Shown here in pieces: positions 2,600 through 12,433 of a stretch of DNA of 32,730 bases (its first letter is position 1; each line of letters starts with the position of its first letter). The stretch comes from Spirochaetes bacterium RBG_13_51_14. GTDB taxonomy: Bacteria; Spirochaetota; UBA4802; UBA5550. Under the pieces are notes generated by a model. That model saw only the letters and a list, made by a program, of their open reading frames with translations. It was not told the DNA's origin and searched no databases. A program made the translations under genes and the position numbers. Location: the NCBI GenBank assembly GCA_001829455.1, contig MIBH01000074.1, positions 1 to 32,730 on the forward strand, read 5' to 3'.

Positions 2600-4594
2600 A
2601 TTCATCACCGCCAGGAATCCGTCATGGATGGCCCGGTCGATCTGCGCCGGCTTTACCGAGTCTCCGATGACCGTGTGGGGTATGCCGGTCTTCTCCAGGT
2701 CGTCGGCGATCATTCGCACCGAACGGGAGCCCACGGCGTTCACGACGGTATCGAACTGGAGAGATTCGGTAGCGCCGTTTCGCGTGAAGGTGACCAGACC
2801 TTTCTTCACTGACTGCACGGTAGCGCCGGGAATGACGGACACGCCGTAGCGGTCGATATTTCCCAGGAGCACCCATCGGGTTGATTTACCCACGTCCTTC
2901 CCCACTTTGGGAAGCATCTCAAATATAGTGACCCTTTTATTGCCCCTGGTGCAGAGCTCGCGCAGCCGCTCAACGCTCTCCGCCTCGTACATGAAGAGAA
3001 AGTGGAGCGCCTCGGGCGTGAGGGTCCCCTTGGCGGCGAGAAATTCAGCGGTTTCGAGCCCGACGGCGCCGCCGCCGATGACGGCGATGTTGATGCCGAG
3101 CCGGGGATCGTCTTTCAGCACGCGCCATGCGGAAACAACCGACGGGTCATCGATGCCGTCAATGGGCGGCATCAGTGGCTCGGCGCCTTCGGCGACGATC
3201 ACGTGGTCGGGCTTCCGTTTCTTGATGTATTCTATATCCACTTCGTGCTCGAGCGAGACATCGATATCGTACGTGTCCAGCATGGCATCATAGTAATGGA
3301 TGAGCTCCCAGAGCTCCTGCTTGTGGGGCGGCGCGCCGGCGATCCAGAGCTGGCCGCCGATCCGGTCCGACTTTTCGTGAAGCTCCACCCGGTGGCCGGC
3401 TTCGGCCGCTCTGATCGCCGCCTCCATGCCGGCCGGGCCAGCGCCAACGACCATGATCCTCTTCGGCGATTTGACCTTTTTGATAATCCGCTCGGCTTCA
3501 TAGCCGGCCCGCGGATTGGCAAGGCAGTAGACCGGCTTTCCGCTGAAGAGCTGGTCAGTGCAGCCCTGGGAGCAGGCCACGCAGGGTCTGATCTTGTCCG
3601 TGTTCCCTTCATGCGCCTTCTGCGGCCAGAAAGGATCGGCGATCAGGACACGGCCCAGGTTGACCATGTCGCAGATCCCGTCTTTGATGAGCTGTTCAGC
3701 GGTAAAGGGATCGCTGATGCGGTTTGATGCGATGACCGGCACTGACACCGCCCGCTTGATGTTCAGGGCCAGGTAGGAATAGACGGCGCGCGGCAGTTCC
3801 ATCGGCAGCTGGGGAACCCGCGACTCGTGCCAGCCGCCGGTGACGTTAATCAGGTTCACTCCTGCTTTTTCGTACACCTGCGCGATGTCCGGCGTTTCAG
3901 CATCCGTATTGCTTCCTTGAACGAAGTCGTTCCCGGCCATTCTGATCGACACGGGATAATCGGGGCCAAGCCGCTGGCGCATCATCTCGATGATCTCCCG
4001 CGGGAAGCGGGTGCGGTTCTCGAAGCTGCCGCCGTACTCGTCGGTCCGGTGGTTTTTCAGGGGCGATAAAAACTGGGTGATGAGGTATCCGGCCGAGGCG
4101 ATGATCTCCACGCCGTCAAAGCCTGCTTCCCGAACGCGCAGGGCAGCGTTCACGAATTTCTCCTGTACTTCCTTGATATCATCAATGGTCATTTCCCGTG
4201 GCATCATTTTTATGTAATTGGAATACACGGGTGACGGCGCTATGGGGTCAGGTCCGCCCAGCATCTTGGAATACGAATAGGCGCCGGCGTGAAAGAGCTG
4301 CACCCATGCGCGTGCTCCATTCTGCTTGATGATCGACGCGAGCGCGGCGAAATCCGGTATGGCATCGTCCGTGCCGAGCTGGAGAGCAACCGGTCCGCTT
4401 CCCTCCATATCGAAACCGACGGGACCGACGGTGACGATGCCGGCGCCTCCCTGAGCTCGCTCGGCGAAGTAATTGAGGTACCGGTCGTTCAGTTTCCCGT
4501 CGTATGAGAACAGAAGCCCCAGGGCCGGGTACGCTATTCTATTTTTCACCACGGTTTTGTTGATCGTGATGGGGCTGAAAAGGCTTTCAAACAT
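2591..4594 (-). CDS. NADH:flavin oxidoreductase / FAD-dependent enoate (2,4-dienoyl-CoA) reductase family protein
   Basis: From ATG at 4594: MFESLFSPITINKTVVKNRIAYPALG (OYE N-terminus), FVNAALRVREAGFDGVEI, FENRTRFPREIIEMMR, Fe-S motif CVACSQGCTDQLFSGKPVYCLANP, and two Rossmann motifs (MVVGAGPAGMEAAIRAAEAGH; IAVIGGGAVGLETAEFLA). Confidence 0.92.
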   Translation of the reverse strand: MFESLFSPITINKTVVKNRIAYPALGLLFSYDGKLNDRYLNYFAERAQGGAGIVTVGPVGFDMEGSGPVALQLGTDDAIPDFAALASIIKQNGARAWVQLFHAGAYSYSKMLGGPDPIAPSPVYSNYIKMMPREMTIDDIKEVQEKFVNAALRVREAGFDGVEIIASAGYLITQFLSPLKNHRTDEYGGSFENRTRFPREIIEMMRQRLGPDYPVSIRMAGNDFVQGSNTDAETPDIAQVYEKAGVNLINVTGGWHESRVPQLPMELPRAVYSYLALNIKRAVSVPVIASNRISDPFTAEQLIKDGICDMVNLGRVLIADPFWPQKAHEGNTDKIRPCVACSQGCTDQLFSGKPVYCLANPRAGYEAERIIKKVKSPKRIMVVGAGPAGMEAAIRAAEAGHRVELHEKSDRIGGQLWIAGAPPHKQELWELIHYYDAMLDTYDIDVSLEHEVDIEYIKKRKPDHVIVAEGAEPLMPPIDGIDDPSVVSAWRVLKDDPRLGINIAVIGGGAVGLETAEFLAAKGTLTPEALHFLFMYEAESVERLRELCTRGNKRVTIFEMLPKVGKDVGKSTRWVLLGNIDRYGVSVIPGATVQSVKKGLVTFTRNGATESLQFDTVVNAVGSRSVRMIADDLEKTGIPHTVIGDSVKPAQIDRAIHDGFLAVMNLN

Positions 4595-7889: not shown

Positions 7890-8588
7890 TCAGATTCCGC
7901 GCAGTTCGCACCGGTCGGCGAAGGTGAGGACGAATTCCCTGATCGCGAGGATTTTTTCCACCGGATACGGCTCGATTGATTCCCACGACCGATCCAGGAG
8001 CCGTGCGTCGCGGTGGAACTGCTGCAGGCAATAGCTCCTCACGCGGCCGATCCGATCCCGGATCCCGGCGAAATCATCCAGCGTGACATATCCCGGAATA
8101 GAGGTGGTGCGCACCTCGTAATCTATACCGCCTGTCCTGAGAATATCGATGCTCTCGACGATACGGCTGAAATCAACATCGGTGCCCGTGACCAGGCGGT
8201 ATTTTTCGGGGGAGGTTTTGATATCGATGGCGGCATAATCCAGAAGCCGTTTGCCGATGAGCCGTGAGATGACCTCGGGATGCAGGCCGTTCGAATCGAG
8301 CTTGATGGACATCCCCAGCTCTTTTATCTTTTCAAAGAAAGAATCGATATTGAGCGAGAGGGTCGGCTCGCCGCCGGAAATTGTCACGGCGTCGATGACT
8401 TTTTTTCTTTTTCTGATGAGATCTATGGCTTCCTCGTTGCTCGCAAGCTCCAGGACCTTCCAGTTATCGGCAAGGTCCGGGTTATGACAGAACCGGCATC
8501 GCAGGTTGCATCCACCGCTGAACAGTACGGTGCAGATTTTTCCCGGGAAATCGATAAGTGATGTTTTATAGATTCCCCTGATATTCAT
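7890..8588 (-). CDS. nrdG: anaerobic ribonucleoside-triphosphate reductase activating protein (radical SAM)
   Basis: MNIRGIYKTSLIDFPGKICTVLFSGGCNLRCRFCHNPDLA (CxxxCxxC radical-SAM motif) with TISGGEPTL; located downstream of nrdD. Confidence 0.88.
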   Translation of the reverse strand: MNIRGIYKTSLIDFPGKICTVLFSGGCNLRCRFCHNPDLADNWKVLELASNEEAIDLIRKRKKVIDAVTISGGEPTLSLNIDSFFEKIKELGMSIKLDSNGLHPEVISRLIGKRLLDYAAIDIKTSPEKYRLVTGTDVDFSRIVESIDILRTGGIDYEVRTTSIPGYVTLDDFAGIRDRIGRVRSYCLQQFHRDARLLDRSWESIEPYPVEKILAIREFVLTFADRCELRGI

Positions 8589-8730
8589 AAGCGGGTGCTT
8601 TTTCCAGCCGGTAAACTTTTCTTTCCCTAAATTCTTCCTGTTTTCCTTTGTTCCACTGGTTTATTGGTCTGAAATAACCGACGACACGCGAATACACTTC
8701 AACCGGGACTTTGCATACCTTTTTACTCAT
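8566..8730 (-). CDS. small NrdD-like protein carrying the glycyl-radical motif (detached NrdD C-terminal domain)
   Basis: MSKKVCKVPVEVYSRVVGYFRPINQWNKGKQEEFRERKVYRLEKAPAYEYQGNL; RVVGY glycyl-radical motif (Gly codon 8677-8679); GGGAGAT Shine-Dalgarno before ATG 8730; its 3' end overlaps the nrdG start. Confidence 0.85.
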   Translation of the reverse strand: MSKKVCKVPVEVYSRVVGYFRPINQWNKGKQEEFRERKVYRLEKAPAYEYQGNL

Positions 8731-8839
8731 GGATAATCTCCCTTTTTGGATATTGTATTTTACACTCCTCATAACATGAGAGGGGACATTTATTCGGGAA
8801 TCAGAATTATGTCGGATTCCCCTGATATATTAATCGGCA

Positions 8840-10873
8840 TTATGCGCCGTCGACTTCAATGCCGTGCTGTATCAACTCATCCTGCGAATGATCATAGGGG
8901 CAGAACTTGTGAGCGCCCGGGATGTACCCGTGGACCGGGCACACGCTGAAGGTGGGCGTCACGGTAAAATAGGGCAACGCGTAGTTCTCGGCGATCTTCC
9001 TGACCAGCAGCTTTACCGAATTGATGTCATGGATCTTCTCGCCGAGGAAGAGGTGGACAACCGTCCCGCCGGTAAACTTGGTCTGAAGATCGTCCTGGTG
9101 GTCGAGAACGTCGAACAGGTCATCGGTATGTCCCACGGGCAGGTGAACCGAGTTGGTGTAGTAGGGCTCCCTGCTCCCCGATGTTTTAATGTCTGGGAAC
9201 AGCTTCCGGTCGTGGAGGGCGAAACGGTAGCTCACCCCTTCGGCCGGGGTCGCCTCCAGGTTGAAGAGATTCCCGGTCTCCTCCTGAAAACGCATGATCC
9301 GGTCACGCATGAAGTCGAGGACTTTGATGGCGAACTCCTTTCCTTCGATTGAAGCGATGTCTGTGTTGAGCAGATTGAGGCATGTTTCGTTCATGCCGAT
9401 GAGGCCGATGGTGGAAAAGTGGTTGATCCAGTACTTCTGATTGCGCTCGTATATGCCGGATAGATAATGTTTCGTGTATGGATACAGGTCATTTTCCGTG
9501 AAATTCTCCAGGGCCTTCCTTTTGATCTCCAGAGAGTTTTTCGCCAGTACCATGAGCCGTTCAAGCTGTCCGAAAAATTCGTCGTTGCTTTTCGACAGGT
9601 ACGCGATGCGGGGCAGGTTGATGGTCACGACGCCGATGCTGCCGGTCAGCGGGTTCGCGCCGAATAATCCGCCGCCCCGTTTCCGGAGCTCCCGGTTGTC
9701 CAGCCTCAAACGGCAGCACATGGAGCGCGCGTCTTCAGGGTCCATGTCGGAGTTGATAAAGTTCGCGAAGTAGGGAATGCCGTATTTCGAGGTCATTTCC
9801 CACATGGGGTCGAGCTTGCTGTTCCCCCAGTCGAAGGCGTTCGTGATATTGTACGTGGGGATGGGAAAGGTGAAAATCCGGTTGCGGGCGTCTCCCTCCG
9901 ACATGCACTCGGCAAAGGCGATGTTGAACATGTCCATTTCCGCATGAAACTCGCCGTAGGTTTTATTTTGAACGACGCCGCCGATAATAACGTGATCGCC
10001 GGCAATGGTGCGGGGCACCGTGAGGTCAAGGGTCACGTTCGTAAAAGGTGTCTGAAAACCGACCCGCGTCGGTATGTTCATGTTAAAGATGAATTCCTGG
10101 AGACACTGTTTTACATCATCATAGGTAAGCTTGTCGTACCAGATGAAGGGCGCAAGATAGGTATCGAAATTGGCGAAGGCCTGAGCGCCGGCGGATTCGC
10201 CCTGAAGGGTGTAGAAGAAATTCACCACGTGCCCCAGGGCGCTCCGGAAATGCTTCGCCGGCCTGCTCTCCACTTTCCCCGCAACGCCGCCGAATCCCTG
10301 CAATAGAAGATCATACAGGTCCCAGCCGACGCAATAGGCTGAAAGAAGACCCAGATCATGAATGTGAAAGTCGCAGTTCACGTGCGCGTTCCGTATTTCA
10401 GGAGGGTAGATCCGCTCCAGCCAATACTTTGCGGTTATGGCGGTCGCGATATGGTTGTTGAGACCCTGCAGGGAGTAGCTCATGTTGCTGTTCTCGTTCA
10501 CCCGCCAGTCGGACCGGTCCAGGTAGCTTTCGATGAGCTCCAGCCCCTCGGTAAGCAGACTTTTCCCCTCCCGGATTTTGCGGTGCTGTTCGCGGTAGAT
10601 GATATAGGCCTTGGCCACCTTTGCGTGGCCCCGCTCGATGAGCATTTTCTCAACGAGGTCCTGAACGTTTTCAACAGTCGGTATCCGACCGTCCTTGTAA
10701 ATTATATCAAGGATGCCAATGATGGAATTGGAGATTTCCCGCGCGGTGATCCGGTCGCTTCCGCCCACGGCCTGGACGGCGTTGTATATGGCGTCTGTTA
10801 TCTTTTCTGCGTCAAAAGGTACGATTCTCCCATCTCGTTTTCTGATGAAATTGGTGTGGGTACCGTCAGCCAT
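8840..10873 (-). CDS. nrdD: anaerobic ribonucleoside-triphosphate reductase, catalytic part lacking the C-terminal glycyl-radical motif
   Basis: N-terminal ATP-cone (FIRKRDGRIVPFDAEKITDAIYNAVQAVGG); RNR-III core (NVNCDFHIHDLGLLSAYCVGWDLYDLL, PTRVGFQTPFTNVTLDL, GSIGVVTINLPRIAYLS); ends ...FSVCPVHGYIPGAHKFCPYDHSQDELIQHGIEVDGA* with no RVxGY in this ORF. Confidence 0.93.
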   Translation of the reverse strand: MADGTHTNFIRKRDGRIVPFDAEKITDAIYNAVQAVGGSDRITAREISNSIIGILDIIYKDGRIPTVENVQDLVEKMLIERGHAKVAKAYIIYREQHRKIREGKSLLTEGLELIESYLDRSDWRVNENSNMSYSLQGLNNHIATAITAKYWLERIYPPEIRNAHVNCDFHIHDLGLLSAYCVGWDLYDLLLQGFGGVAGKVESRPAKHFRSALGHVVNFFYTLQGESAGAQAFANFDTYLAPFIWYDKLTYDDVKQCLQEFIFNMNIPTRVGFQTPFTNVTLDLTVPRTIAGDHVIIGGVVQNKTYGEFHAEMDMFNIAFAECMSEGDARNRIFTFPIPTYNITNAFDWGNSKLDPMWEMTSKYGIPYFANFINSDMDPEDARSMCCRLRLDNRELRKRGGGLFGANPLTGSIGVVTINLPRIAYLSKSNDEFFGQLERLMVLAKNSLEIKRKALENFTENDLYPYTKHYLSGIYERNQKYWINHFSTIGLIGMNETCLNLLNTDIASIEGKEFAIKVLDFMRDRIMRFQEETGNLFNLEATPAEGVSYRFALHDRKLFPDIKTSGSREPYYTNSVHLPVGHTDDLFDVLDHQDDLQTKFTGGTVVHLFLGEKIHDINSVKLLVRKIAENYALPYFTVTPTFSVCPVHGYIPGAHKFCPYDHSQDELIQHGIEVDGA

Positions 10874-11569: not shown

Positions 11570-11624
11570 AAAACTTATTATTTTCGTGCAGCAACAAGTC
11601 CCATGATAATGGAGTTTGTCAATC

Positions 11625-11906
11625 ATGCCGGAACTGATACATGTTAAAGGGAAAAACGTTGGCAGAGTGATCCTTTACGCCCTCAGCACCTGCGTCTGGT
11701 GCAAAAAGGCCAGAAATCTTCTTGATGAACTGAAGATCGAGTACTTTTATACCTATGTGGACCTTCTGGACAGCGAGGAAAACACTCGGGTAAAAAACGA
11801 GATACGCAAGTGGAATTCCCATTGTTCGTTTCCGACTATAGTAAAAGATGACGGCTCATGCATAGTCGGCTTTGATGAAGAAAAGATTCGCGGGCTGAAA
11901 AAATGA
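11625..11906 (+). CDS. glutaredoxin-family protein
   Basis: [33 protein letters not shown]...[24 protein letters not shown]: CxxC active site, FPT cis-Pro motif, VGF. Confidence 0.88.
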
Positions 11907-12433
11907 ATCCTCATTCCGATATCACCGCCGGGGCGATTAACGGACTCTATCGAAAACTCTTCACCGAAGCGGAAAAATCCGGGTATCACCTTAATCCTGA
12001 TGAAGATTTTACGAAAGTCCTTGTCAGGAGCCTGCTGATTAATGAAAACAGGTACGGGTACTGGGCATGCCCGTGCAGGCTCGCCGCTGGGGCCAAGGCA
12101 GACGATCTTGATATTATCTGCCCCTGTGACTACCGGGACGCCGACATCGATGAATATGACGCCTGTTACTGCGCTCTCTACGTATCGCGGAGGATACTCA
12201 ACGGCGAGAAGCAGGTCAAACCGATTCCGGAGCGCCGCCCGCCCGAGGAGGTACGGATGATGAAAAAAGACACTCCCGGTCCGAATCAATCAATCTCAGG
12301 ATTGAGCCAGCCGGTCTGGCGCTGCAAGGTGTGCGGTTACCTGTGCGCCCGGGACGGCCCTCCCGAGGTCTGCCCCATCTGCAGGGCGGAGAAGGAGCGG
12401 TTTGAACTGTTCATTGGGAAGAGCACGGCCTGA
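11903..12433 (+). CDS. ferredoxin:thioredoxin reductase catalytic-subunit-like protein fused to a C-terminal rubredoxin-like domain
   Basis: FTR motifs [11 protein letters not shown]...[26 protein letters not shown] (CPC, CPC, CYC); C-terminal [32 protein letters not shown] (CxxC...CxxC). ATGA overlap with the upstream Grx gene. Confidence 0.88.

Follow-up and report, generated by a model that had tools for sequence, protein, structure and literature searches.

The class III ribonucleotide reductase (RNR) of Spirochaetes bacterium RBG_13_51_14 is very probably a split enzyme, in which the NrdD chain ends short of its glycyl-radical site and a small, separately encoded subunit supplies that site; the radical subunit would be a detachable, sometimes virus-borne module. 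The comparisons described below establish how the genes are arranged, that this arrangement is conserved, and that the zinc ligands of the two chains complement one another.

The Split nrdD Locus

In the 32,730-nt stretch of DNA analyzed here (the window), nrdD occupies positions 8840..10873 of the minus strand and encodes a 677-aa large subunit (ATG start, TAA stop) that comprises an ATP-cone, a catalytic barrel with an MCCR motif, and a zinc knuckle (C645-H648-C658-H662), as assigned from Pfam/NCBIfam profiles, alignment and structure. Pfam places the ATP-cone at residues 10–98 and covers positions 1–532 of the 562 in the NRDD profile (PF13597, E = 4e-177), and NCBIfam gives NF006126 with 1027 bits. 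The C-terminus reads ...CPVHGYIPGAHKFCPYDHSQDELIQHGIEVDGA and ends after the zinc knuckle; the RVxGY motif, and with it any glycyl site, is absent from the large ORF by profile and sequence scan, as the preliminary description of this DNA had stated. After a gap of 109 nt (8731..8839, minus strand), and in a different reading frame, follows an ORF of 54 aa (8566..8730, minus strand; MSKKVCKVPVEVYSRVVGYFRPINQWNKGKQEEFRERKVYRLEKAPAYEYQGNL), in which Gly18 of RVVGY is encoded at 8679–8677. This small ORF matches positions 526–562 of NRDD, including RVVGY, far beyond chance (E = 4e-10), and a Pfam search found no second family in it at E ≤ 1. The NRDD profile is thus tiled by two ORFs (1–532 and 526–562), which therefore represent one NrdD jointly.

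The small ORF has a Shine-Dalgarno sequence of its own (AGGGAGA, 8737..8743, minus strand; core GGGAG, 8742–8738) located 6–7 nt ahead of its ATG; another in-frame ATG upstream, at 8772, would give 68 aa and has no Shine-Dalgarno sequence. It overlaps by 23 nt the start of nrdG (7890..8588, minus strand), which encodes a radical SAM activase of the NrdG2 type (232 aa; TIGR02495, E = 4e-56). The independence of the small ORF, its likeness to the NrdD C-terminus and its overlap with nrdG had all been proposed earlier and are borne out. Among the features of class III RNRs, the dedicated radical SAM activase NrdG is thus present, beside the small ORF; the glycyl motif is found on a separate ORF and not within the same polypeptide. 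The gap contains a GGGAATC...GATTCCC hairpin that is not significant on shuffling (z = −0.87), and an RNA element between the two ORFs was rejected as a candidate, the window hairpin being non-significant and such hairpins mostly absent in other families. Genus relatives have strong GC-rich hairpins in the same gap.

Divergent from nrdD lies a gene for a glutaredoxin-like protein (11616..11906, plus strand; PF00462, E = 2e-10), a plausible candidate for the reductant of an NrdDh-type enzyme. The adjoining gene encodes a ferredoxin-thioredoxin reductase catalytic chain with a rubredoxin domain (11903..12433, plus strand; PF02943, E = 2e-21; PF21349), a candidate redoxin reductase and likewise a plausible NrdD reductant.

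The host assembly is a draft of MAG-like character (3.56 Mb, 84 contigs, about 90% complete). A profile search of this roughly 90% complete assembly gave no further NRDD match, so that the second full-length NrdD against which the preliminary description had cautioned is not found there. The genome encodes one class II NrdJ, and class III is for that reason not the cell's sole RNR. The earlier characterization of the two-polypeptide arrangement as obligatory accordingly stands for the enzyme, whose large chain has no glycyl site, and falls for the cell. The gene of the host NrdJ (L239 611–4084, G000:C52) contains an intein that bears a LAGLIDADG domain.

Class III Features of the Large Chain

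In an alignment of NrdDs, C181, C386, and C387 of the large chain are invariant, and its catalytic and zinc residues are identical in split and fused NrdDs. The SCCR/MCCR motif that marks the NrdDh subclass is present upstream of the hydrophobic tip of the finger loop (RSMCCRLRLDNRELRKRGGGLFGANPLTGSIGVV; assigned by motif comparison with PMC4493059); the MCCR variant has been reported for NrdDh4 (PMC4493059). An AlphaFold2 model of the large chain alone, built on a 37-sequence alignment, has a pLDDT of 84, and Foldseek gives class III RNRs for all of its best PDB matches. By its NRDD core, invariant cysteines and predicted fold, the window NrdD belongs to class III. Its C-terminal zinc knuckle (C645, H648, and C658, together with H662) would bind metal, to judge from homologs.

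Recurrence of the Split Architecture

The arrangement is found in 40 genomes of the uncultured Spirochaetota order to which the host belongs (window included), each with a separate small ORF after nrdD. The gaps between the two range from 0 to 405 nt in the order, all three relative frames occur, and a stop codon separates the two pieces in every translated locus. Over all split loci, frames 0, 1, and 2 account for 24, 27, and 15 cases, and a motif scan found the order nrdD-small ORF-nrdG, first noted in the window, in 58 of 70. A Shine-Dalgarno sequence precedes 39 of 44 small ORFs, compared with 10% of random ATGs. The pN/pS of the small ORF within the genus is 0.12, and synonymous sites are close to saturated; by this measure, the small ORF is under strong purifying selection. 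Among 80 genomes of the phylum at least 90% complete, 37 of the 41 NrdDs of the window's type in the match table are split and four are continuous.

Many of the genomes in the survey are MAGs, and isolates are also represented: in Thermodesulfobacterium hveragerdense, T. thermophilum, and Thermodesulfatator autotrophicus, a split NrdD is the only NrdD found. Plasmids of Paracoccus denitrificans and P. ferrooxidans carry split pairs, the 60-aa small gene of the latter being annotated as "hypothetical protein." Further pairs occur in WOR-3, TA06, Muiribacteriota, Margulisbacteria, relatives of Desulfuromonadales, one Chloroflexi MAG, and two Diapherotrites archaea. Large in-frame insertions, probably inteins, interrupt the NrdD core of T. 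thermophilum and of a virus contig (L093, L207).

In a tree of 70 core sequences, from which the zinc and glycyl columns were excluded, there are eight changes between the split and fused states, at least five of them forced by well-supported branches, with splitting and re-fusion indistinguishable. The window's order forms a single clade with 100% support, every member of which is split. In a Patescibacteria locus (L114), a full-length NrdD is followed downstream by an extra short glycyl ORF (4007–4430), which suggests that duplication came first and loss of the original glycyl site later; this locus is a possible duplication intermediate. Across these genomes the split recurs, with variants that are fused or borne by viruses, and is no local oddity.

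Complementary Zinc Ligands on the Two Chains

Ordinary NrdDs of the window's type end in CPxHG...CPxC-x4-EVYSRVVGY, with the last knuckle cysteine five residues before the E. The fourth zinc ligand was therefore scored in each split pair as CxxxH or CxxC on the large chain versus Cys at this −5 position on the small. In 59 linked pairs the large chain carries the ligand (CxxxH in 50, CxxC in 9) and position −5 of the small chain is not Cys. Eight pairs have neither CxxC nor CxxxH on the large chain, and Cys stands at −5 on all eight small chains; two of these large chains contain CxxH, itself a conceivable ligand. The unlinked pairs of genomes G054 and G105 show the same combination, no large-chain ligand and a small-chain Cys at −5. 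Pairs that lack the fourth ligand on the large chain are scattered over several separate positions in the tree, and in none of the scored pairs is it missing altogether. The window pair alone combines a His ligand on the large chain with a Cys on the small chain, and lies outside this either/or pattern; its Cys6 was considered as a shared zinc ligand and rejected, being absent in genus relatives.

The simplest account is that both chains jointly build one zinc site, binding of zinc being judged by homology. The complementary ligands are evidence for physical assembly of the two chains and, with the unlinked small genes of complete genomes, support the two-polypeptide enzyme that was originally suggested.

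These observations bear on the proposal of a large ORF that encodes a decayed or regulatory NrdD, a small ORF that is a mere spare part, and a cell reliant on class II NrdJ. We regard this as very improbable. An NrdJ is indeed encoded in the genome, and orphan small copies occur in many genomes; however, complementary ligands would not persist in a decaying enzyme, split and fused forms share the same catalytic and zinc residues in the large chain, the order nrdD-small ORF-nrdG is kept at 58 of 70 loci (motif scan), and three isolates have a split NrdD as their sole class III enzyme.

Unlinked Pairs and Redoxin Fusions

In two single-contig genomes (G103 and G111), distances of ~527 kb and ~95 kb separate the glycyl gene from the core gene, and the assemblies of G054 and G105 place it on a different contig from nrdD, so that the chains would have to meet in trans if the enzyme is functional. 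The small subunit of G046, G051, and G118 joins a predicted helix and the glycyl loop to a thioredoxin/glutaredoxin domain (by profile or sequence match), and several more genomes appear by eye to encode such a fusion. In this group, both chains end at the break in charged, heptad-like segments (read by eye), consistent with a coiled-coil contact between the chain ends.

Fusion of the ORFs into one chain by recoding, whether through a programmed frameshift, stop readthrough or ribosomal bypass, is slightly less probable again than a decayed NrdD. The spread of frames (24/27/15), the long gaps (as much as 369 nt), the ribosome sites of the small ORF itself, the unlinked copies, and the redoxin-fused copies behind their own start all speak against it, even though the two ORFs of the window stand side by side on one strand and only one stop codon separates the in-frame ORFs of some pairs. 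A sequencing or assembly error that broke one full-length nrdD by a frameshift or false stop, the concern raised in the preliminary description and one to which a draft source in 84 contigs at about 90% completeness lends itself, is almost certainly not the explanation, since the same break recurs in dozens of genomes (40 of the order, plus other phyla, isolates included), gap lengths and frames vary, the small ORF has an extra start codon and Shine-Dalgarno sequence, and complete genomes place the glycyl piece 95–527 kb away.

Proposed Mechanism

In the split enzyme, the 677-aa NrdD would form the barrel, bear the catalytic cysteines and allosteric sites and stop at the zinc knuckle, and the separately translated 54-aa subunit would provide the glycyl-radical loop. 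NrdG is expected to act on Gly18 of the small subunit by hydrogen abstraction. That subunit would dock in the barrel at the position of the C-terminal loop in ordinary NrdDs and hand the radical to a large-chain cysteine. Shared zinc ligands, or paired, heptad-spaced helices (recognized by eye) at the new ends, may hold the junction together in related genomes. Radical formation, docking and turnover are described here by analogy with the family. Exchange of an oxygen-cleaved small subunit is a plausible benefit. Encoded by a small gene of its own, the radical subunit could be duplicated, relocated, fused to a redoxin or carried by a virus.

Orphan and Viral Glycyl Genes

About 14 genomes of the order contain extra glycyl ORFs distant from nrdD, several of them amid phage-type genes (Mu Gam-like, integrase, ParB-like, amidase, and repressor). 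Some orphan ORFs occupy chromosomal places common to related genomes (L057/L061; L059/L062; L067/L069/L071), next to leuS/thiC-like genes, a dehydrogenase gene and birA/transporter-like genes. One orphan lies near a recombinase and a reverse transcriptase gene (L068 3643–4668); the virus ANMV-1 also encodes a reverse transcriptase. Four Lentisphaerae-related contigs (L113, L115, L131, and L152) have stand-alone, Cys-bearing glycyl ORFs, and no NrdD core was recognized in the flanks examined.

In IMG/VR, 297 stretches encode relatives. A whole-record search of 40 records, which may be fragments, found the glycyl piece alone in 37 and an NrdD core as well in three. The −5 Cys is present in 26 of 60 viral glycyl pieces and absent in 34, so both zinc types are represented among them. 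ANMV-1 has been described as encoding an oxygen-sensitive RNR (PMC4372165); its "nrdD" (KP703175.1, L236 3680–4114) is a 144-aa orphan glycyl protein, and a whole-record profile search found no NrdD core anywhere else in the 38-kb record. The annotation is hereby corrected from RNR to glycyl piece only. Judged by these genes and by the split loci, the glycyl piece of class III RNR is a part that has repeatedly been turned into a separate, movable gene.

Rescue of oxygen-cleaved enzyme by orphan and viral copies, in the manner of GrcA/YfiD, is plausible. We give roughly even chances to a broader reading, in which the glycyl subunit is an exchangeable cartridge, replaced after oxygen damage in cells with split NrdD, and in which viruses carry this ~50-residue piece alone to re-arm or boost host NrdD during infection. 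If this cartridge reading is true, the solitary glycyl genes of viruses, prophage-like regions and conserved chromosomal loci would be the first known spare parts of any glycyl radical enzyme besides pyruvate formate-lyase (PFL). A detached radical subunit suggests a very cheap viral means to influence host dNTP supply and a route of repair after oxygen damage, a question that has also been raised for other glycyl radical enzymes (PMC8683613).

Comparison with Known Systems

In the structurally characterized NrdDs compared, one chain holds both the radical glycine and the active site. A detached radical subunit would allow the radical-bearing part to be produced, activated by NrdG, labeled, mutated and swapped separately, and bears directly on how the glycyl domain swings out toward NrdG and back into the barrel. 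A search of the open literature found no NrdD described as having its glycyl subunit encoded separately; because the search covered open papers, a split NrdD with a detached glycyl subunit is likely, rather than certainly, new.

Canonical class III NrdD/NrdG and the NrdDh enzymes of Thermotoga maritima and Neisseria bacilliformis (PMC4493059) share with the window enzyme the fold, the SCCR/MCCR motif, the zinc knuckle and NrdG; many NrdDh members have an ATP-cone, as in the window, and a redoxin reductant is likely common to both (PMC4493059). However, the glycyl loop of NrdDh is the C-terminus of the protein (PMC4493059), whereas in the window it is a separate polypeptide. The split class II RNR of Pseudomonas aeruginosa, NrdJa/NrdJb, is also an RNR of two polypeptides, but it belongs to another class and has no glycyl radical (PMC4520616). 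Phage nrdD genes may likewise be interrupted, as in phiAS4, but their breaks are due to introns, inteins or unexplained fragmentation and do not yield a conserved, separately started glycyl subunit (PMC3653736). A further parallel is with YfiD/GrcA and phage T4 Y06I, spare parts of PFL that are likewise small, stand-alone glycyl domains for a large glycyl radical enzyme, with viral versions; according to the authors who describe them, these two are the only validated spare parts and others may exist (PMC8683613). YfiD/GrcA carries a PFL-type glycyl radical domain, whereas the window small ORF matches NrdD (PF13597 alone, at E ≤ 1). Unlike YfiD/GrcA, the small subunit of the window appears to be constitutive, since its large partner lacks a glycyl site.
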